Positions 406 through 44,816 of a stretch of 44,823 nt of DNA are shown here, piece by piece. Under the pieces are notes generated by a model. It saw nothing but the letters and a program-made list of their open reading frames with translations. It did no database searches and was not told the DNA's origin. How positions within the stretch are numbered: the stretch's first letter is position 1; each line of letters begins with the position of its first letter. A program made the translations under genes and the position numbers. The DNA is taken from the NCBI GenBank assembly GCA_900315105.1, contig OMXX01000034.1, positions 1-44,823 of the forward strand, written 5' to 3'. The stretch comes from an uncultured Prevotellaceae bacterium. Lineage in GTDB: Bacteria > Bacteroidota > Bacteroidia > Bacteroidales > Bacteroidaceae.

Positions 406-486
406 AGACCCTCAAAATCTCCCTGCATAGGGAGACTTCCATCGCCCAAAAGCTTTCCCCCTATGCAGGGGGATCAAGAGGGTCTT
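406..486 (+). repeat. GACCCTC palindromic element, copy A
   Basis: An element of about 80 nt bounded by AGACCCTC and GAGGGTCT, with two inner hairpins: TCTCCC-tgcata-GGGAGA (near 419-435) and CCCCCTATGCAGGGGG (near 457-473). The same element occurs at 32091-32172 and, in opposite orientation, inside the RNA methyltransferase gene at 29482-29561. Confidence 0.85.
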
Positions 487-27684: not shown

Positions 27685-28778
27685 TGGAGAATAACGAGTC
27701 TTGGAAACATGAAGGAAAAAGCTGGTATCTGTTGAGGTATGGCCAGATTTCCTTTCAGAAAATGCATAGCCAACTTGAGAATTCCGGTCTTGAGTTCTTC
27801 CTGCCGTCATATACTGCGGTAGAGAATCGCAAGCAGGGCGTACAGGTTCGTGTGGAAAGGGCGTTGATGTTCAATATGATGTTCATCCACTCTTCCCTCG
27901 ACGAATGTGTACAGTTCGTTGTGAATAATCCCGGGGTGAATTTCATGGTGAAACCGTCTGAGGAACATCCGTCTGTTTCCCTGAATCAGCTTACGCCCGA
28001 GGAGAAGAAGAAGGAGTTCTGCTACGATAAGGCCACATTCCGTTATGTGATTACCATTCCGGAAAGGCAGATGGATATGTTCATCAAGACCGTGACAAAT
28101 CGTAATACAAGGACTGTTCCTTTCATGAAGCCTTCGGAAATCGACTTGGAAAAGGGTGACAAGGTGAAGATTATAGGCGGTCCTTACGATGGTGTTGAGG
28201 GCATACTTGAAAGCCAGAAGGGTAAGGATGGCGGTACTGTCTATGTCCACATTCTGAATTTCATAGCCACACGCACCACCGAGATACGTCCTGAGTTCAT
28301 ACAGATACTGGAGTTTGCCAAAACAGGCAAGCACATGTATAAGAAGTTTGACTCCTTCATGACCCGCGGCCATCGTTGTGTTCTGTCTCATGCCAATGGG
28401 GAAAAGATATCCGCACGCGATAATTCATATCTTAACGTCTTCATACGCAGGTTTTCCGAACTCAAGACTCCTACGGTGAACATGACGGCAAAGCTGCATC
28501 TTTTTCTCTTTATTGCATATACTTGCCTTGACAGAAAGACGGAAGCCGACGTACATGAGAAATTCCTGCAGGATTATCTTGAACAGATATCCTCGGAGTC
28601 AATGCGTCTCAAGTGCCTGCTCTATCTATTCGGTTGCACAGGCTCGAAGGTGTATAAAAAGCAGATGCAGTCAATGATAAAAGGCTGGAGGAAGAACTCC
28701 AAGCTTGACAGCAAGAAACAGGAGATAAAGGATGCCTTCCTTGAATTTGAATGGGTTTGGGATGGAGGTGATGAGTGA
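27684..28778 (+). CDS. Long NusG-like (UpxY-type) transcription antiterminator
   Basis: 364 residues, about twice the usual length of UpxY/NusG paralogues. The N-terminal NGN domain (about 10-130) starts KSWYLLRYGQISFQKMHSQL and contains FFLPSYTAVEN, RVERALMFNMMFIHSS and FVVNNPGVNFMV. A KOW motif follows: EKGDKVKIIGGPYDGVEGIL (about 153-172). The last 160 residues are a helical extension (FIRRFSELKTPTVN, LEQISSESMRLKCLLYL) that I cannot assign. UpxY proteins in Bacteroides bind RNA polymerase and allow readthrough of capsule operons; they are usually encoded first in the operon. Here the gene is last, coupled to rfbB. That arrangement suggests it acts on another polysaccharide locus or on this same transcript. 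The stop codon lies inside a palindromic repeat. Confidence 0.88.
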   Translation: MENNESWKHEGKSWYLLRYGQISFQKMHSQLENSGLEFFLPSYTAVENRKQGVQVRVERALMFNMMFIHSSLDECVQFVVNNPGVNFMVKPSEEHPSVSLNQLTPEEKKKEFCYDKATFRYVITIPERQMDMFIKTVTNRNTRTVPFMKPSEIDLEKGDKVKIIGGPYDGVEGILESQKGKDGGTVYVHILNFIATRTTEIRPEFIQILEFAKTGKHMYKKFDSFMTRGHRCVLSHANGEKISARDNSYLNVFIRRFSELKTPTVNMTAKLHLFLFIAYTCLDRKTEADVHEKFLQDYLEQISSESMRLKCLLYLFGCTGSKVYKKQMQSMIKGWRKNSKLDSKKQEIKDAFLEFEWVWDGGDE

Positions 28779-28885
28779 AAAGTGAAGAGTGAAGAATTTA
28801 AGTTGCATTTATAGCGAAAGGTGATTATCTACCTTAAAACGCAATACAAACTTAAATTCTTCACTCTTCATTCTTCACTCTTCAC
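28779..28885. repeat. About 105-nt palindromic element, GTGAAGA family, copy 1
   Basis: Outer arms with GTGAAGAGTGAAGAATTTAAG and its complement (ending about 28885) are perfectly paired over 23 nt. The centre has a small hairpin AAGGT-gattatct-ACCTT. The arms are runs of 7-nt units (GTGAAGA / TTCACTC). It begins directly after the antiterminator stop and ends just before the RNA methyltransferase stop, at a convergent junction. Copy 2 is at 33987-34083. Confidence 0.85.
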
Positions 28886-28901: not shown

Positions 28902-29723
28902 TTAGGCATTTCTCCTCCTGAATTCCGCCACCGTTATGGCAGTTGCAATAGCCACGTTGAGGCTTTCGGCGGTGTCGCGTTCCGGGGGATAGGAAGGGAT
29001 TAGCAGACGGTGGCTTACCAATTCCCTTATGGCAGGTGAGATGCCGTTACCCTCGTTTCCCATTACGATAATGCCATTTGCCGATAGTTGGCTGTTGTAT
29101 ATGTTCTCTCCGTCCAAAAGTGTGCCGTAAATAGGTATATCCCTGTCTAATTTCCTGAGAAACTCTGTAAGGTCGGTATAGAAAACCTTCACCCTTGATA
29201 TGCTGCCCATTGTCGCCTGGACAACCTTGGGCGCATACGCATCGGCAGTTGTCTGGCTGCAAATGATCGTGTCAATACCAAACCAATCCGCAATTCTTAT
29301 TATCGTACCGAGATTGCCGGGGTCCTGAACTCCGTCAAGTGCTATGCATAGATGCTCCCGAAACCAGTTTTCTTCGGGAATGGTGTTGTTGTCGGGTATC
29401 TCAAACACGCCGAGTACCTGTTGCGGATGCTGCAGGAAGCTGGTCTTGCGAAGCTCGTCTTCTGTAACCGTAATTAAGAGTGGACCCTCTCCCCGCTCCC
29501 CCTTAAAGGGGGAGGGCTGATTGGTAGAAATGTCTCCCTTTAAGGGAGATTTAGAGGGTCTGCTCATCCACTCCTCGCATCCTACAATCATCTTCGGATT
29601 ATAGCCTGCATGTAGCAGTTCTTCTACAATCTTGAATCCCTCCGCAACAAAGACATTATCCTTCTTGCGGTTCTTCTTCAGTTCAAGACTGCTGATGTAT
29701 TTCTGTTGGTTCTTGGAGATCAT
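28902..29723 (-). CDS. SpoU/TrmH-family RNA methyltransferase with in-frame repeat insertion
   Basis: 273 residues from ATG 29723 (the in-frame ATG 30 nt upstream overlaps the -7 box and is not used). The N-terminal substrate-binding domain spans about 1-50 (YISSLELKKNRKKDNVFVAEG). The SPOUT catalytic domain has the knot motifs ALDGVQDPGNLGTIIRIADW (about 125-145), NGIIVMGNEGNGIS (about 206-219) and IPSYPPERDTAESLNVAIATA. S-adenosylmethionine is the donor and a ribose 2'-O position of rRNA or tRNA the expected target. Residues about 55-82 (RPSKSPLKGD ... PSPFKGERGEGP) are an in-frame translation of the palindromic element at 29482-29561. They fall in the linker between the two domains, which could explain why the frame survived. 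The gene ends at a convergent palindrome shared with the antiterminator gene. Confidence 0.9.
   Translation of the reverse strand: MISKNQQKYISSLELKKNRKKDNVFVAEGFKIVEELLHAGYNPKMIVGCEEWMSRPSKSPLKGDISTNQPSPFKGERGEGPLLITVTEDELRKTSFLQHPQQVLGVFEIPDNNTIPEENWFREHLCIALDGVQDPGNLGTIIRIADWFGIDTIICSQTTADAYAPKVVQATMGSISRVKVFYTDLTEFLRKLDRDIPIYGTLLDGENIYNSQLSANGIIVMGNEGNGISPAIRELVSHRLLIPSYPPERDTAESLNVAIATAITVAEFRRRNA
29482..29561 (-). repeat. GACCCTC palindromic element, copy B, inside a coding sequence
   Basis: On the minus strand it begins AGACCCTCTAAATCTCCC, has hairpins CTCCC-ttaaa-GGGAG and CCCCC-tttaa-GGGGG, and ends GGAGAGGGTCC. Outer bases AGACCCTC and GAGGGTC match copies A and C; the hairpin loops differ while the stems stay paired. 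Translated in the gene's frame it gives about 26 codons with no stop. Confidence 0.88.
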
Positions 29724-32090: not shown

Positions 32091-32172
32091 AGACCCTCTA
32101 AATCTCCCTGCATAGGGAGACTTTTTAGCGCTCCGGCTCTCCCCCTATGCAGGGGGAGCGGGGAGAGGGTCT
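32091..32172 (+). repeat. GACCCTC palindromic element, copy C
   Basis: Begins AGACCCTCTAAATCTCCC 8 nt after the tamL stop; hairpins CTCCC-tgcata-GGGAG and CCCCCTATGCAGGGGG; ends GGAGAGGGTCT. It fills the gap before the PIN-domain gene, which starts 20 nt later. Confidence 0.88.
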
Positions 32173-32192: not shown

Positions 32193-33986
32193 ATGACAGA
32201 AAAGACAACCGAAGTGGTAGTTTCCGAGGCTGGTAATGAAAAACAGCCTCGTAGAAAACCGGCAGTACGTAAGGCTGCAACCACAAAGAAAAAGGCTGCC
32301 AAGAAGGAAGAAGCTGTTGAGCCTGTAATCGAAGTAAAAGAAACAGAGGCTCCTGCAAAAAAACAACCACAGCGACGTGGACGTAAACCGAAACAAACAG
32401 CCGTAGAGGCAGCCAAGACAAAGACAGAAAACAATGACGCTCCTGTTCAGGCAACAGCCCAACACACAGAATCGCAGGATGCAGTCGTAGAAGTTCAGAA
32501 TCCAGTTCCTGAAAAGCCTAAGAAAGAGGAAACAAATGCTGAGGTAAAGAACGAAAAAAAACCTTCTTCCGAACCTGAGAAAGTGACTGGCAAGACAGAG
32601 GAAAAGGGTAGGGCAGAAGAAATCAAGAAAGAGGTTAAGGCTGATGTAAAGGCCGAGGTAAAGGTAGAGGATAATTCCAACATCCAGAAGTCAACACCTA
32701 ACACCCAACACCAATCTGCCAACACCCAGAAGCCAATCCCTCCGTTCAATCCCGTCCGTATCGACACCATCGTAGATATGGTGAATGCGCCAAAGGGACA
32801 GCTCCTTCTCAACGATCAGCAGATTCAGCAGCTCACACAGGAGGAGGCTCTCAAGCGCTTCCGTTGGATAGAGGGCACTCTCGCTTGGGTACTCAACTAT
32901 GATGTCGTTATCTCAGATACCAACATCTGGCTCGAACTTCTCGTCGGCCATACCTCAAGTCATAGTGACCCTAAGGTTAATGCCCGACTTATGTTTGAGC
33001 GTCAGCTTGAGTTCATCTCAAAGCTCGTGCGCTACCGTGGCGGACGTTTCATGATGATGAGCGAGACATACGAGGAGATTGACCGTTTCGCCACTCAGCA
33101 GGCTCCTACAAACTATAAGGATGCTGATTTCGCCGATGAGGCATTGTGCCGTAACGTGTCTGCGCGTCTTGCAAAGCGACTCATCCTCTCCCAGCTGCGC
33201 GAGAACCGTCTGAAGATTGAGGGTATCTGTGCTGAGAGCCATCATGCTGCTTTTGCCGATCCTGCCATCATCCGCAAGACCGTGGAACTGTTCTCTGTGG
33301 GCAAGCGTGTATTGCTTCTTACGAATGACGCATCTGTGGCAATCCGCAGTATGGGTATGTGCGACGACCTCCAGCGCATCAACGGCATCGACGATGAGAC
33401 GTGGGAGCACATCTATGCACCATTGCGCCCTATGGTCATCACGATGGACGACCTGAAGGTACTCGACCTATACACACGTCAGTATCACTTCCTCCAGATG
33501 GCTGCCGGCAAACAATGGATGGAAGATGTGCCACAACGTATGGAGAAGCGCAATATCCAGCCGCTTACTCTCTGGCTCGACGGTTTCCGTCCAGGCGACA
33601 AACAGTCGGAGATGAACATGAACAAACAGCAGCAGAAGCAACAGAAACAGGCAAAGCAGACGCAGCAGAAGCAACAGCAGAAACAGCAGAAGCAGGAGCA
33701 ACAGAAGACTCAGGAACAAGAACAGCCGAAGCAACAGCAGGCAAAGCCTGTGCAGCAGAAGAATGAGCCAAAGCAGTCTCAGGCTGAGCAGAAGCAGGAA
33801 CCAACGGCATCCGAGATGGTCATCGTGACCGACATCCCTAATACTCCTGAAATGCCAGATACTCCTGCAAATGCAGAATCCCAGGAGCCTACGGAAGCAG
33901 CAGAGCAGCCAACTCAGCAGCGTAAGCGTCCGCAGAGAAGACGTCCGCAGCGTAAGCGTCCGCAACAGGCACAGCAAGATAGTTAA
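32193..33986 (+). CDS. PIN-domain protein with basic and Gln/Lys-rich low-complexity tails
   Basis: 597 residues in three parts. Residues 1-180 are lysine/alanine/glutamate-rich with AT-hook-like RRGRKPKQ (about 61-68). Residues about 195-450 are folded and look like a PIN-type nuclease: acidic triad candidates in VISDTNIWLELL (Asp near 240), MMSETYEEIDRF (Glu near 293) and LLLTNDASVAIRSMG (Asp near 378). Residues about 470-597 are a Gln/Lys run (KQQQKQQKQAKQ and QQKQQKQEQQK units) ending in RKRPQRRRPQRKRPQ. PIN domains are metal-dependent RNases; the tails could bind RNA or drive phase-separated assemblies. The combination is unusual. No antitoxin gene lies beside it, which argues against a VapC pair. 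It sits after tamL and may be co-transcribed. Confidence 0.82.
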   Translation: MTEKTTEVVVSEAGNEKQPRRKPAVRKAATTKKKAAKKEEAVEPVIEVKETEAPAKKQPQRRGRKPKQTAVEAAKTKTENNDAPVQATAQHTESQDAVVEVQNPVPEKPKKEETNAEVKNEKKPSSEPEKVTGKTEEKGRAEEIKKEVKADVKAEVKVEDNSNIQKSTPNTQHQSANTQKPIPPFNPVRIDTIVDMVNAPKGQLLLNDQQIQQLTQEEALKRFRWIEGTLAWVLNYDVVISDTNIWLELLVGHTSSHSDPKVNARLMFERQLEFISKLVRYRGGRFMMMSETYEEIDRFATQQAPTNYKDADFADEALCRNVSARLAKRLILSQLRENRLKIEGICAESHHAAFADPAIIRKTVELFSVGKRVLLLTNDASVAIRSMGMCDDLQRINGIDDETWEHIYAPLRPMVITMDDLKVLDLYTRQYHFLQMAAGKQWMEDVPQRMEKRNIQPLTLWLDGFRPGDKQSEMNMNKQQQKQQKQAKQTQQKQQQKQQKQEQQKTQEQEQPKQQQAKPVQQKNEPKQSQAEQKQEPTASEMVIVTDIPNTPEMPDTPANAESQEPTEAAEQPTQQRKRPQRRRPQRKRPQQAQQDS

Positions 33987-34083
33987 GAGTGAAGAGTGAA
34001 AAATTTAAGTTACATTTATAGCGAAAGGCGATTATCGACTTAAAAACGCAATACTAACTTAAATTCTTCACTCTTCACTCTTA
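33987..34083. repeat. About 97-nt palindromic element, GTGAAGA family, copy 2
   Basis: Begins directly after the stop of the PIN-domain gene. Arms GAGTGAAGAGTGAA...ATTTAAG pair with CTTAAATTCTTCACTC; the inner TTTATAGCGAAAGGCGATTA block matches copy 1 (28779-28885). As there, it lies between converging genes. Confidence 0.85.
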
Positions 34084-34096
34084 TCTCTCTTAAAAG

Positions 34097-36376: not shown

Positions 36377-36404
36377 AGTGTTAATAGAATAAAGACAGCC
36401 CTGC

Positions 36405-36550
36405 GGCCCCTCACCCGCCCTGCGGGCACCCTCTCCCCAAGGGGCGAGGGAAAAATTACTTTTGTCCTCTGAAAAGAGAACGTGATTAGAAATTACTAAC
36501 TTCCCCCTCGCCCCTTGGGGAGAGGGTGCCCATAGGGCGGGTGAGGGGCC
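36405..36550. repeat. Inverted repeat with 46-nt arms
   Basis: Arms 36405-36450 and 36505-36550 match at 44 of 46 positions (both begin GGCCCCTCACCCGCCCT and include CCCTCTCCCC) around a 54-nt loop. It fills the gap between the phosphorylase start and the PD40-like gene's stop. The arms contain GGGCACCCTCTCCCCAAGG blocks similar to GC-rich repeats elsewhere in Bacteroidales. Confidence 0.88.
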
Positions 36551-36558
36551 GTTAGTTA

Positions 36559-39465: not shown

Positions 39466-39580
39466 AAAGCTCTAATATGATTAATTCTTTTGCCCCTACA
39501 GGGCGAAATTACCTACTACCATTTTCCTAGGGCGATGCCCTAGGCTATTAGCTTATTGCCCCTTCGGGGCGCTATCGGAT
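39466..39580. repeat. Palindromic GGGCGATGCCC repeat, copy 2
   Basis: Same block order as 1-118: a GCCCCTACAGGGC hairpin (39491-39504), then CCTAGGGCGATGCCCTAGG (39526-39544), then GCCCCTTCGGGGC (39559-39571). Loop bases differ between the copies while the stems remain paired. Confidence 0.75.
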
Positions 39581-39605
39581 ATGCTGATGATTATTTGTCG
39601 TAATT

Positions 39606-39733
39606 TGAGCGCCGTAGGTGCGACACCTAAAAGGGCGGTTCGTAAGAGCCGTTATATTATGGGGATTATAGTAATCTGAGGTCTGAAGGACCGACACCTA
39701 AAGTCTTCAGGTGTCGCACTTACAGCGCTCCTT
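39606..39733. repeat. Palindrome with GCGCC...GTGCGACACCT arms
   Basis: GAGCGCCGTAGGTGCGACACCT (39608-39629) pairs with AGGTGTCGCACTTACAGCGCTC (39710-39731) at 20 of 22 positions, with smaller hairpins (GGTCTGAAGGACC; GACACCTAAAGTCTTCAGGTGTC) inside. No obvious coding potential. Confidence 0.7.
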
Positions 39734-40087
39734 TAATCACGCATCTATAGAATAACAGCCCTTACGGACTGCCCTTGTTTTTTTAGATGGCGAAAGCAAG
39801 AAATACGACTTGCGTCGGGGTTGGAAAGTAAATTGTCAGAAAATTAGAATCAGTAAATTCTTTTCAGATACATTAGATAAATCCGTTTCTTTTTTCTTTT
39901 CGAACACAGAATGCACGAAAGAAACGAAGGCCTTCGTTTATTCTGTGTCTTCCGTGTTCATGTTTTATATTGACCACAGACATTCAGGATCTCACAGATG
40001 TCAATCACGAGCGCAAGCGAGATAATCTGTTTAATCTGTGGTCGTTTAGAATTTACTGAATATAATTTACTGGTTTAATTTCCTTCC

Positions 40088-40218
40088 ACTTGCTTTAGCT
40101 TGATGAGCCTAAGCGAATAATTTACTTTCAAAAAATATTTCAGGGCGCAAGCCCAGTTTCTTATTGGTAAAAGATTGCGTAGATTGTAAATTTTTGTCAG
40201 TTCAGCACTGGAGGTGCG
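40088..40218. repeat. Copies of two intergenic repeat families
   Basis: 40088-40117 is the GCTTTAGCTTGATGAGC unit. From 40133 the block CAGGGCGCAAGCCC, TTTCTTATTGG, GATTGCGTAGATTG and TTGTCAGTTCAGCACTGGAGGTGCG follows. The second block appears in reverse at about 42386-42480 and in part at 42575-42655. Confidence 0.75.
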
Positions 40219-40294
40219 TTAAATTTGAATTTGTTTTTATATGTTTTTATTGGTTTTGTCCTGTTTTTTTAGATGGCGAAAGCAAATGATTTGC

Positions 40295-40331
40295 AGAAAA
40301 AAAACGTGCAAATCATAATGACCTGCACGTT
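40295..40331 (-). terminator. Terminator of the esterase gene
   Basis: On the minus strand AACGTGCAGG...TTGCACGTT followed by TTTTTTTT; it lies 40 nt after the esterase stop codon. Confidence 0.88.
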
Positions 40332-40371
40332 CTAATCTAAATTATTAGTTATTATTAATTATTTGAATTAT

Positions 40372-41664
<1,293 letters not shown>

Positions 41665-41857
41665 TTAATGTTTATTTTTTGAATAATTGATACGGTTTTC
41701 GTGTCTTTTGACGAAACTGCTATCAAAAAGTTCAATCCCATCCGCGATAGTTATAAAAGATTAACATATCACCCATTAATCCTCCGCCTTTCCCCCTTTT
41801 TGTATAGATATCCCCCCCATTTGTCTATGATTCAGCCCTCCTGCGGAAGGGGGGTAT

Positions 41858-41899
41858 AGTTTAGAGGTTAGAGGTTAGAGTTTAGTGCTTAGAGATTTT
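41858..41899 (+). repeat. Six 7-nt TTAG units
   Basis: AGTTTAG, AGGTTAG, AGGTTAG, AGTTTAG, TGCTTAG, AGATTTT: 6 x 7 = 42 nt. The same length and period appear in the two rfb gaps at 25882 and 26509. Confidence 0.75.
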
Positions 41900-42084
41900 C
41901 ATCCAGATTTTTCCTAAGATTTTCTCTGGATTTGGCTTTCCCTTCGGCCGCCGACCTCTTCGACGTTCTGAGCGAGGAACGAGCGAAACAAAGAATAATT
42001 TTCCTCCCCATATTTTCAGCAAAGATTTTTTTTAGATTTTCAGCGGGGATTTTAAAACCTCTGCAAGTCTCGTTATTCGTATTT

Positions 42085-42305
42085 GCCTGGAAGGCAACAC
42101 TATGCGTAACCGAGGTGCATACTCGACGAAGGAGAGGATGCCCTCGGACATAGAGCCTCCATCAACTAATCAGCCTGGAAGGCTGTACCTGATTGGCGGT
42201 GTACTGCCCTCCAGGCAGTAGTGGGGGATTGGCGCTATATCCCCCGCACATCCTCGTTTCTCTCGTATGTACGGGGTTACGAATAGTACTGTCTTCCAGA
42301 CAGTT
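42085..42305. repeat. Complex palindrome, CTGGAAGGC family, copy 1
   Basis: Outer ends GCCTGGAAGGCAACACTATG and CATAGT-like ACTGTCTTCCAG pair, as do GTAACCGAGG...GAGAGGATG and CATCCTCG...ACGGGGTTAC. Inside, CCTGGAAGGCTGTAC pairs with GTACTGCCCTCCAGG and a GGGGGATTGGCGCTATATCCCCC hairpin follows. Copy 2 is at 44577-44816, overall about 85% alike by eye. Confidence 0.85.
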
Positions 42306-42338
42306 TTTATCTCGTTTATAGAGATAGAATGAACAATG

Positions 42339-42655
42339 ACTTGCTTCGGCTTGTTGAACTTTGCGAAAAATTCAATGTAAACGCATCTACGATGCTGAAC
42401 TGACAATAATTACCAATCTACGCAATCTTTAATCCAATAAGAAACCGGGCTTGCGCCCTGAGATGTTTTTTTGAAAGTAAATTCTAAGAAAATTAAACCA
42501 GTAAATTAATTTACTGATAAAATTTATTGCCCATTTGCTTTCTTTAATTCGCGTCAGCGAGCCTTTCTTTATGGTAGAAGATTGCGTAGATTGCAACTTG
42601 CATAACTTGATGAGCCTAAGCGAAAAATTCTTGTCAGTTCAGCAACGGAGTTGCG
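42339..42655. repeat. Mixed copies of the GCTTTAGC and CAGTTCAGCA repeat families
   Basis: Includes units at 42339-42366 and 42596-42624, an inverted CTTGCGCCCTGAG / GAAACCGGGC block at 42386-42480 that is the reverse complement of 40124-40218, and TTACTGATAAAATTT sequence with TTTACTTTC. It probably arose by successive insertion of repeats. Confidence 0.65.
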
Positions 42656-42665
42656 CCACCTCCTC

Positions 42666-43880
42666 CTAAAACCGATACCCGTATTTTAGTGTGAGGTCAA
42701 TCTCCCGGTTCGTTATATCCATTCCTGTGCAACTGCGGAACAGATACTGGCGGTAGTCACATGAAAGATTAAGCAGACTCCGCCCTATGTTATAGTTTAT
42801 TCCGCCACGAACAAATCCGTTTATGGTGAACTGCGAATCCCGTCCGTATGTGGCTGCGTCATAGAAATGCTTGTCGTATGCCTCCCATAAATCATCATCT
42901 TCCGGGTCGGTTTGCATGTAAACGTCATTCGGGTCATCCCAACTCCTGTGCGTCTCCCTGTTTACCAACGAAAACATCGGGATGACGGAAATACTGAATA
43001 GCAGTTTCCCCCCGTTTATAGCCCAGTTGTAACCATAACCTGCTCCTATGGAGAACTGATTATGACGGAACACCTCCTCCGTATAGTTCAGCATCCTATA
43101 CATATGTAATCTGCTTTGGTTATAATTTGCCATGACGAAAAAACTCCCCACGCTCCGCTTCTGTATCAATCGACCTGTGCGGGCTGCCGGCATACTAAAC
43201 CTCTTATTGTTAAACACATAATAAGCATCTGCATATACCGTTCGCAAATCCCAGTTCTCAGGTATCACATCCGATTTATGCGGAAAAACAGGGTCGTGAT
43301 TTTCCATCAGAGGCAACCCGTTTTCATATCGTTCCTTTAACCCTCCCACACGCTCTTCCACCTCTTCACAAGTCTGTAGAAATGCATTATTAACAGTTCC
43401 TTTAGGCTCTTTAACTGTGCGGTAGCGTACTGTGAAACCGAATTTAGAACCATTGCTGGCAAGACTATATGCCTTTGCGAATGAGTTATTGATAGGAAGC
43501 GGAATACTAACGGCCAAGCCGTGCCAGTCGAATCCTATTTGTGCCGATGATTTCACCGTGTTCAGGTTAGTCTGAATAAACAGATTACTGTTCGTGTTCG
43601 ATGGCAAAACCATAGGGTAGGGGTCAGGAAGTTCCACTTCAGATACAAGCACGGGAAACTCCATATCGTAAGTCTGAAAAGCCTCTCTGAACTTCAGCGT
43701 GAGCATAAAGTCCCGCTCAGGAATATCCACATAATCCGTATCCACCTTAGTTTTCTTGTATTTCAATATAGCATCATCAATTTTCCTTATGAAGTTATGG
43801 CGTGTATTTCCTTTTTGGGCACAAGCCGTCATTCCCCAAAACATCAAGAAGAATGCCGTCAGCAAGGTCTTTGTTCTCAT
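42666..43880 (-). CDS. DUF4421-like outer-membrane-type protein
   Basis: 404 residues from ATG 43880, which yields a signal peptide (MRTKTLLTAFFLMFWGMTACAQ). Upstream ATGs sit in the -7 region and are not used. The body is beta-rich with alternating hydrophobic strands (FLMTLKFREAFQTYDMEFPVL, SNLFIQTNLNTVKSSAQIGF, YNWAINGGKLLFSISVIPMFSL) and ends in an aromatic, RYLTLKYGYRF-like segment, typical of outer-membrane beta-barrels. It resembles the Bacteroidales DUF4421 family from memory; the function is unknown. The -7 box TATCTTTG lies at 43940-43933, about 45 nt upstream of the start. The gene is last before the repeat-rich end of the window. Confidence 0.75.
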   Translation of the reverse strand: MRTKTLLTAFFLMFWGMTACAQKGNTRHNFIRKIDDAILKYKKTKVDTDYVDIPERDFMLTLKFREAFQTYDMEFPVLVSEVELPDPYPMVLPSNTNSNLFIQTNLNTVKSSAQIGFDWHGLAVSIPLPINNSFAKAYSLASNGSKFGFTVRYRTVKEPKGTVNNAFLQTCEEVEERVGGLKERYENGLPLMENHDPVFPHKSDVIPENWDLRTVYADAYYVFNNKRFSMPAARTGRLIQKRSVGSFFVMANYNQSRLHMYRMLNYTEEVFRHNQFSIGAGYGYNWAINGGKLLFSISVIPMFSLVNRETHRSWDDPNDVYMQTDPEDDDLWEAYDKHFYDAATYGRDSQFTINGFVRGGINYNIGRSLLNLSCDYRQYLFRSCTGMDITNREIDLTLKYGYRF

Positions 43881-43932
43881 ATGGTATATATCAAAGGTAT
43901 GCATAATTATTGTAATAATGATTATTTTGCAC

Positions 43933-43940
43933 AAAGATAC
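43933..43940 (-). promoter_or_regulatory. -7 box of the DUF4421-like gene
   Basis: TATCTTTG on the minus strand followed by TGCAAAATAATC. No clear -33 box. Confidence 0.5.
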
Positions 43941-44035
43941 ATAATTTTTCTGTATTACTGATGTTTTTTACAATTTTTTTTTGCACAACCCCAAAATAAT
44001 ACTATGAAACAGGAAAAATCAAGTGATTGGAATAT

Positions 44036-44083
44036 TAAAAACGCCAAGACGCAAAGTCGCGAAGTTTATATTGCTTTGCGTCT
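44036..44083 (-). terminator. Hairpin after the smalltalk-like gene
   Basis: On the minus strand AGACGCAAAG...CTTTGCGTCT followed by TGGCGTTTTTA, 34 nt after the stop codon of the peptide gene. The CGCAAAG/CTTTGCG pair recurs in the direct repeats TCTGCGTC beside it. Confidence 0.7.
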
Positions 44084-44116
44084 CTGCGTCTCTGCTTTAA
44101 TTACTTACATAATTGC

Positions 44117-44209
44117 TTACATACAGCTCTGCACTCCGAGTGAAGTTGCTATCGCGGTCAGTATCGCCGCCAAAGTCTGAAGAATGAATTTCCAAGTTTC
44201 CTTTTTCAT
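44117..44209 (-). CDS. Smalltalk-like 30-residue peptide
   Basis: ATG 44209 to TAA 44117. The peptide begins MKKETWKFILQTLAAILTAI and ends in GVQSCM. This matches the pattern of the Bacteroidales 'smalltalk' family as I remember it: basic Lys/Trp start, one hydrophobic helix, and a conserved Ser-Cys near the end (Cys29). No function is known for the family. It has been noted near HU-type DNA-binding and amidase genes; none is in this window. A hairpin terminator follows. Confidence 0.75.
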   Translation of the reverse strand: MKKETWKFILQTLAAILTAIATSLGVQSCM

Positions 44210-44576
44210 TTCTGAAAGCAAATTAAAGGTTAATAAAATCTCTGCTTGCGCAGAGGGTTGAGTTTCTGCTTGCGCAGAGGTGGGGTGGAAAGTAAATTAG
44301 GAAGAAAATTATAGTCAGTAAATTACACGCGGCATCCGCCGCTGGGGAAATTGAAATCTCAGAAAAAATAATTTTTAAAATTATAATTTACTGGTCTTAA
44401 TTTACTGGTCCAATTTACCTCCCATTTACTTTCCACCCTCACCGACGCAAGTCGGGGTTAAAGTCCTCCGCCCTCACCGCCACCGGAAGGTGGGTTGTCA
44501 TTTCCAGCGCCAGAGGTGGTGTTAGAAGCGTTTAAATTGGAAAGAAATTAAATCAGTAAATTATATTCGGTAAATT
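44210..44576. other. Gene-free repeat-bearing region
   Basis: No gene. Short TTTACTTTC/AGTAAATTA blocks occur several times, together with ACGCGGCATCCGCCGCT (near 44326-44343) and a CCGACGCAAGTCGGGG hairpin (near 44440-44456) that echoes ACTTGCGTCGGGG at 39808-39821. Confidence 0.65.
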
Positions 44577-44816
44577 GCCTGGAAGGCAACACCATGAGTA
44601 ACCGAGGCGCATACTTGACGAAGGAGAGGATGCCCTCGGATATAATGCCTGCTATCCTTAACAGTCTGGAAGGCTGTACCTGATTGGCTTTCACGCATAA
44701 CCTCTCGCGATGTACTGCCCTCCAGGCAGTATTGGGGGTGTGGGTTGTAAATCCCCGCACATCCTCGTTTCACTCGTATGTACGGGGTTACTCATAGTAC
44801 TGTCTTCCAGACAGTT
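44577..44816. repeat. Complex palindrome, CTGGAAGGC family, copy 2
   Basis: Begins GCCTGGAAGGCAACACCATG and ends GTACTGTCTTCCAGACAG; shares nearly all blocks with 42085-42305 but has about 19 nt extra around ACGCATAACCTCTCGCGATG. Outer and inner arms pair as in copy 1. Confidence 0.85.

Follow-up and report, generated by a model that had tools for sequence, protein, structure and literature searches.

The Methyltransferase Gene and Its Palindromic Insert

The stretch of DNA analysed here (the window, 44,823 nt) is contig OMXX01000034.1 of assembly GCA_900315105.1, from an uncultured Prevotellaceae bacterium, and by its named matches the host looks Prevotella-like. It carries a TrmH/SpoU family RNA methyltransferase gene, for which TTG starts also lie further upstream of the MISKN start, and the best match of the protein among solved structures is 2i6d. 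Between the residues EEW and VTE, the protein reads MSRPSKSPLKGDISTNQPSPFKGERGEGPLLIT. This region contains a palindromic element of which two further copies are non-coding (Table 1).

Table 1. Positions of the methyltransferase gene, the palindromic element and its copies in the window.
Feature	Position (nt)	Strand	Remarks
TrmH/SpoU family RNA methyltransferase gene (host of the insert)	28902..29723	-	PF00588, PF22435; MISKN start at 29723
REPIN-like palindromic element	29482..29561	-	predicted to be translated in frame as RPSKSPLKGDISTNQPSPFKGERGEG
Hairpin, one half-element	29496..29514		9-bp arms, 1-nt centre
Hairpin, other half-element	29533..29549		8-bp arms, 1-nt centre; complementary to the first hairpin in the central sequence
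Non-coding copy of the element	406..486	+	no listed ORF of at least 80 aa before 902
Non-coding copy of the element	32091..32172	+	between an Omp85-type gene (ends 32083) and an ORF starting 32193

An earlier note on this DNA had proposed that a dispersed repeat runs through the coding sequence in frame and without a stop, and the alignment bears this out: the three copies form one family of double-hairpin repeats of about 80 nt, and the only stop-free frame among the six of the coding copy is the one used by the gene. Each copy is a large imperfect inverted repeat, AGACCCTC...GAGGGTC(T), with two hairpins inside, and 29483-29512 is 87% complementary to 32142-32171 over 30 nt. The centres of the two hairpins are complementary to each other within a copy, as TGCATA/TATGCA in both intergenic copies and TTAAA/TTTAA in the coding one. 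The units are arranged as inverted pairs in all three copies, of which one is coding; these are the copies known in 45 kb, and their alignment revealed no common GTAG/CGTC-like tag. REPINs are elements that contain two inverted REP units each, and they were reportedly described, with RAYT transposases, by Bertels and Rainey in 2011 and by Nunvar in 2010.

The site of the insert is a loop within the Pfam MRM3-like substrate-binding match (residues 15-115) of the N-terminal domain, and not the linker between the two domains, where it had been placed previously. The loop is 33 residues long with the insert and 15-16 residues long in close kin without it, and comparison with these insert-free proteins indicates that about 9-10 host residues have been replaced, or about nine relative to the MSQHLTP-like loops described below. 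The net gain is thus 17 residues (33 vs 16), and neither a clean 26-residue insertion nor the simple gain of about 26 residues suggested in the earlier note is supported. A tryptic digest would be expected to release peptides such as GDISTNQPSPFK from the insert and its junctions.

An AlphaFold2 model of P0002, a relative that carries the insert, was built with 55 aligned sequences and has a mean pLDDT of 86.5, with 194 of 281 residues above 90. In the N-terminal domain, the insert (residues 63-88) is flanked by a helix (58-61) on one side and a strand (90-94) on the other. Within it, residues 71-86 are below 50 and, besides the N-terminus, form the sole stretch of three or more residues under this value. 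According to this model, the protein should tolerate the insert with its fold intact.

Several other repeats occur in the window. A second family is represented by two 108-nt copies (28774-28881, just downstream of the methyltransferase gene, and 33981-34088), which are 89% alike and have inverted arms of about 37 nt of the GTGAAGAGTGAA type. A very strong inverted repeat at 36404-36551, between two minus-strand ORFs, has 55-nt arms that are 91% complementary and 38 nt apart, and is C/G-rich like REP elements. A 533-residue protein encoded at 904-2505 consists of fourteen Sel1 repeats with a DNA period of 108 nt, and a CAG/AAG-rich low-complexity stretch (Gln/Lys-rich, 33618-33800) lies inside the ORF at 32193-33986. 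The region 39526-44816 is dense in dispersed repeats around DUF4421 and esterase genes, with copies that are 91-95% alike (e.g., 42083-42158 with 44575-44650, and 42242-42305 with 44753-44816).

Distribution of the Insert Among Relatives of the Methyltransferase

The best 120 of 8000 scored protein matches were compared at the loop. The insert is present in 12 of these 120 relatives (P0002-P0013, the last with a rearranged start), and the peptide RPSKSPLKGD is unchanged in 11 of the 12. A loop of 15-16 residues is found in P0014-P0031, and the insert was not seen in the remaining relatives of this set that include the region; P0039 is a fragment without it. Proteins with and without the insert can be nearly identical outside the loop, as shown by the query and P0014 (237/239 residues), P0009 and P0015 (236/240), and P0013 and P0019 (231/239), where the former of each pair carries the insert; most of the compared sequences are metagenomic, and the linkage between loop and flanks could partly reflect assembly.

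A tree was calculated from 34 sequences with the loop excluded, leaving out P0001 (equal to the query) and the partial P0032 and P0039. The carriers of the insert do not form a clade on this tree. Their distribution requires six changes, at least four of which are forced by well-supported branches. One origin of the insert was recovered in 0% of 200 bootstrap trees, and the tree with a single clade of carriers was rejected (p-AU 5e-38). A single origin followed by plain vertical descent is therefore rejected.

The loops without the insert are of several kinds. One of them, INSYHPTP..HHQIIT, is found in P0014, P0016, and P0020, another, MSQHLTP-like, in P0015, P0018, P0019, P0021, and P0025, and further kinds in P0017 and P0022-P0030. 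Each of the first two kinds is common to sequences that stand apart on the loop-free tree, and whole loops therefore look exchanged. Homologous recombination would be the simplest way for such an exchange to occur.

Other Repeats at the Same Loop and at the RelA/SpoT Site

The site of the window insert (loop 1) also houses other repeats. In two loci of related Prevotellaceae, L001 and L012, it is filled by GGTTCA-type tandem repeats that encode a GGTTCAAGGTTCA-type peptide. The actual linker between the domains, loop 2, contains a further tandem repeat in L001 and an unrelated palindrome pair in L012. At the peptide level, the same loop is LPSLQGGAGG-like in P0076, P0093, P0095, and P0103, or VQGSGFKVQGSG-like in further relatives.

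A comparable situation was found at a site in RelA/SpoT, where genome G002 (uncultured Prevotellaceae RUG062, the genome of L012) carries a palindrome. Among the 120 relatives listed, 78 have ten host residues at this site, 24 the G002 palindrome peptide (40-42 residues), 17 a repeat-like LEVRGEGLEVRE-type peptide (19 residues), and one a different palindrome-type peptide (43 residues), the last two assignments being judged from the peptide. Outside the site, proteins with the palindrome are up to 99.7% identical to empty ones and to those with the repeat-like peptide, and empty and repeat-like proteins reach 100%. A quick tree built from 51 of the 121 rows requires 13 changes among the four states, compared with a minimum of 3.

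Repeat peptides were also noticed in genome G001, in which two proteins without a Pfam family (L134, L136) contain the same repeat peptide, LTPALSQGEG, immediately followed by a C-terminal tail that is similar in both (WYDL.GRK...NGKKVV).

Palindromes in the Coding Genes of Related Genomes

The palindrome of L012 is dispersed in G002, with 21 matches, and has 12 matches in G001. A half-element profile, whose seed was a coding copy, was run on a G002 sample of 1,794,590 bases out of the 3.2-Mb assembly; at E<0.01 it recovered 65 copies, and the reversed sequence, used as a control, gave no match. Gene calling by a simple codon-usage method gave 1433 genes, which cover 90% of the DNA. The copies are internal to ORFs in 48 cases, N-terminal in 3, partly overlapping in 3, and intergenic in 11, though N-terminal placements (TatC, LptF/G, NadD, a chromate transporter, and a 108-aa ORF) may be start-site errors. 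Thus, 51 of the 65 copies are coding, and they lie in 42 of the 1433 genes (about 3% of those sampled). This proportion is below the coding fraction of the DNA (p = 0.005), so the elements do not prefer genes but merely avoid them little.

Coding copies occur on both strands and in all six frames (13, 10, 10, 9, 6, and 3 copies). The consensus has no stop in any of these frames, and copies with GTAGG have one in a single frame; this tag, counted by eye, is present in 10 of 21 seed units, i.e., in part of the family. Close pairs of units are inverted in 11 of 12 cases, and most units are single. The mean hairpin energy is -7.9 kcal/mol for coding and -8.1 kcal/mol for non-coding copies (n = 51 and 14, p = 0.66), compared with -4.0 for shuffled sequences. 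The earlier note had taken the paired stems as a sign that the DNA or RNA structure is under constraint; the equal folding of coding and non-coding copies does not establish this, and recent insertion alone would be a sufficient explanation.

The host proteins are mostly members of known families, with a Pfam family in 38 of the 40 scanned (out of 42 genes). Names read from the Pfam matches include MutS2, UvrA, RelA/SpoT, MiaB, PrmA, PrmC, RibD, IspD, CoaBC, NadD, guanylate kinase, PurL, TatC, the CCA-adding enzyme, and an aconitase-type enzyme, among others. By reading, the insert lies inside the Pfam match in 17 proteins, and in the rest at domain borders, at the ends, or outside the match; one unit is located at the junction of a DUF559-guanylate kinase protein. 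In comparisons with solved structures, the insert falls in a gap or unaligned stretch in 6/6 proteins tried, wholly in RibD, a DEAD helicase, RelA, and MiaB, and partly in MutS2 and the linker of the guanylate-kinase protein.

The family is sparser in G001 (8 matches in 408 kb). Ten genes had a match there, of which eight were aligned and two, at 26-41% identity, were left out. In three of the eight (PrmA, LeuA-like, and pullulanase-like), the insert is common to both genomes at the DNA level, which means that inserts can outlast speciation. It is degraded in the aconitase-type gene of G001, and the two genomes differ in the remaining four (CoaBC, a DUF4130 protein, TrmH, and a response regulator that is only 50% identical). 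CoaBC of G001 has the host residues EKDD in place of the insert, so trmH is not the only gene in which host residues were replaced. When 112 loci (L001-L112) and the window were scanned for the G002 family, it was detected in L012 alone (4 matches at E<0.01, none in the reversed control); element families are thus lineage-specific.

A strict pattern for the window element matched in 2 of 399 genomes, and a looser one, CCTCTAAATCTCCC-spacer-GGGAGA, yielded 13 copies in 9 of 151 sampled genomes of the bacterial family and none with the reversed pattern. The element itself had no match at the DNA level in six genomes, an empty result that by itself shows nothing. Six of the 13 copies are in ORFs, and the other seven are not inside ORFs. 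Hosts of the window-type element include the large subunit of carbamoyl-phosphate synthase (CarB, L287), where the element lies partly in a gap relative to the mitochondrial enzyme 5dot, a GH43-type protein (L285), the C-terminus of an EamA transporter ending in SRPSKSPLKGDFKD (L288), and the region near the start of a 172-aa ORF without a family (L289). In two mobile-element-type proteins of genome G084 (BT4734-like, DUF3987; L290 and L291), different palindromes occupy apparently the same position.

Y1 Transposases as Candidate Vectors

Y1_Tnp matches were obtained in six of seven genomes, and the Y1 proteins of G002, G001, and G006 contain the motifs NHVH and YIHQNP. A direct link between these transposases and the coding elements was looked for in Y1 loci and not found. 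The G002 model had no match at E<0.01 in nine Y1 transposase loci, only four of which come from G002 or G001, where the model applies (two weaker G002 Y1 matches are outside the sample), and the window-type element was not found in two of these loci (G330, G069). That a Y1 (RAYT-type) transposase is the vector of the elements is a guess, which we would put at about an even chance.

A separate palindrome with 11-bp arms lies directly after a Y1 transposase ORF of G002 (L250:2252-2288). Its core, GGGGAC(A/T)GTCCCC, occurs 6 times in 1.79 Mb, and it may be that transposase's own repeat.

Comparison with Known Palindromic Elements

Among known in-frame palindromes are the RPEs of Rickettsia (Ogata 2000, 2002, as cited in the accessible text of PMC2229807 and PMC3733652). 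Their choice as a precedent in the earlier note was apt: according to these sources, they are palindromic repeats found between genes and in frame in many unrelated conserved proteins, and the same two locations are seen here (one of three copies coding in the window, 51 of 65 in G002). Even a host is similar, since an RPE resides in gmk of R. conorii (PMC2229807, accessible text) and G002 has its unit in the guanylate kinase protein mentioned above. The differences are the phylum, the size (105-146 bp for RPE in the accessible text of PMC2229807, vs about 80 nt for the window element), the largely coding location in G002, and the presence or absence of inserts between near-identical sequences shown here.

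Another parallel is offered by REPs of the GTAG/CGTC type that lie within genes (Di Nocera et al. 2013, PMC3733652), for which the accessible text describes REP hairpins and inverted dimers translated in ORFs, often as 20-30 residues. Their hosts include UvrA and RNA helicases, both of which are also host kinds in G002. The same text presents REPs as mostly intergenic, with GTAG outside and CGTC within Bacteroidetes, and the word Prevotella is absent from it; in G002, a GTAG-like motif is found in only part of the family.

With REPIN/RAYT systems, the elements share inverted pairs of REP units and a setting in which most of the genomes searched have Y1 transposase genes; they differ in their mainly coding location in G002 and in that no element was found beside the Y1 genes examined. 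REPs are usually short palindromes of 20-40 nt that recur many times in a genome, as the G002 family does (65 matches in 1.79 Mb), and units are paired in inverse orientation (11 of 12 close pairs in G002, all three copies in the window). A mostly extragenic location, also typical of REPs, was not observed in G002, with its 51 of 65 copies in ORFs; in the window, one of three copies is coding. The accessible text of PMC6006769 lists the motifs NH[LIV]H and YIH[QN]NP for TnpAREP subclass 2.6 from Bacteroidetes and remarks on atypical flanking structures, copies of which occur at other places in the genome. The Y1 proteins of G002, G001, and G006 fit these motifs, while the coding elements were not found adjoining the Y1 genes seen here.

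Among the published open-access papers listed by title, in several cases the top 10-20 of 13-242, none was seen to concern in-frame palindromes in Prevotella. We consider the following to be new: the element families and the group of hosts, the predominance of coding copies in one genome, the occurrence of different repeats at single loops, and the presence or absence of inserts in near-identical sequences.

Proposed Mechanism and Alternative Explanations

We regard it as likely that the element is a REPIN-like selfish palindrome in a trmH-family gene, tolerated as a disordered loop, whose alleles are exchanged or lost among strains. A non-autonomous repeat made of two inverted REP-type hairpins would have entered the gene at a surface loop in a stop-free frame, its hairpin DNA perhaps inserted by a Y1 (RAYT-like) transposase. 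Survival of such an insert would require an uninterrupted frame and a free loop. It would be translated into a disordered loop rich in Pro, Gly, Lys, and Glu that leaves the fold intact, and would thus be a tolerated passenger rather than a needed part. Loop alleles, with the insert or of several kinds without it, would coexist in natural populations. Homologous recombination would exchange them between strains, or they would be lost and later gained again. Lineage-specific element families would, in the same way, have placed such peptides in many core proteins of relatives. The identity of the repeat, its frame, its presence and absence, its patchy distribution, its spread over many genes of one genome, and the occurrence of different repeats at one loop are all observed.

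Other explanations have to be weighed against this. The segment could be an old, integral part of the protein that was lost in other lineages; its occurrence in 12 of 120 listed relatives and the constancy of RPSKSPLKGD would fit, yet the same DNA is found between genes, the other listed relatives that cover this part of the protein lack the segment, and the tree forces at least four changes. According to the earlier note, a segment carried by all relatives would be an ancient part of the protein; the comparison of relatives favours insertion, and an ancient origin is highly improbable. Equally hard to believe is a loss of the insert before synthesis or maturation of the protein, through excision from the RNA or through ribosome bypass. 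In principle, a strong hairpin within a coding sequence might have this effect; however, the coding copies lie in open frames of ORFs supported by codon usage, with matches on both sides, and removal would make an open frame unnecessary. Moreover, the gmk product of R. conorii is translated and enzymatically active (Delihas 2007, PMC2229807, accessible text).

Presence and absence could also be mainly an assembly artefact, in which strains of mixed samples are misjoined at a variable spot. The sequences are mostly metagenomic, and assemblers can switch strains at variable spots between conserved flanks. We nevertheless find this quite unlikely, as both states recur (150 member sequences and 6 contigs in the insert-free cluster P0014, 12 members and 1 contig in the insert-bearing P0002), RelA shows the same pattern, and the separate genomes G001 and G002 have some inserts in common and differ in others. 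The alleles exist either way, and the doubt concerns only their linkage to the flanks. Finally, the peptide or hairpin may be useful, regulating the enzyme or mRNA or providing a switchable protein variant, and be kept by selection. This is unlikely, though it draws on the stems kept in coding copies, on the inserts shared by both species in three of eight compared gene pairs, and on the different repeats that occupy the same loops. Against it stand the use of all six frames and both strands, which implies that no single peptide is selected, the replacement of one repeat-like peptide by another, the near-identical sequences without an insert, and the low confidence of most of the insert in the AlphaFold2 model.

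Significance

Protein-coding palindromes have classically been tied to Rickettsia, with scattered cases elsewhere; here, they occupy about 3% of the sampled genes of a Bacteroidota genome, including those for (p)ppGpp synthetase, nucleotide-excision repair, and tRNA modification. In the annotation of proteins from this group, LTPSPSPKGEG, LPSLLGGVGG and similar peptides may be signs of translated repeats and not of domains. The presence or absence of inserts in near-identical sequences makes it possible to test their neutrality, how they move, and which loops accept them. A bolder idea, which we think unlikely, is that permissive loops in core enzymes (TrmH, RelA/SpoT, and others) harbour a lasting reservoir of peptide cassettes derived from repeats in Prevotella populations, and that recombination swaps these cassettes faster than the rest of the gene changes; selfish palindromes would in this way be turned into switchable, possibly functional variation of housekeeping proteins.
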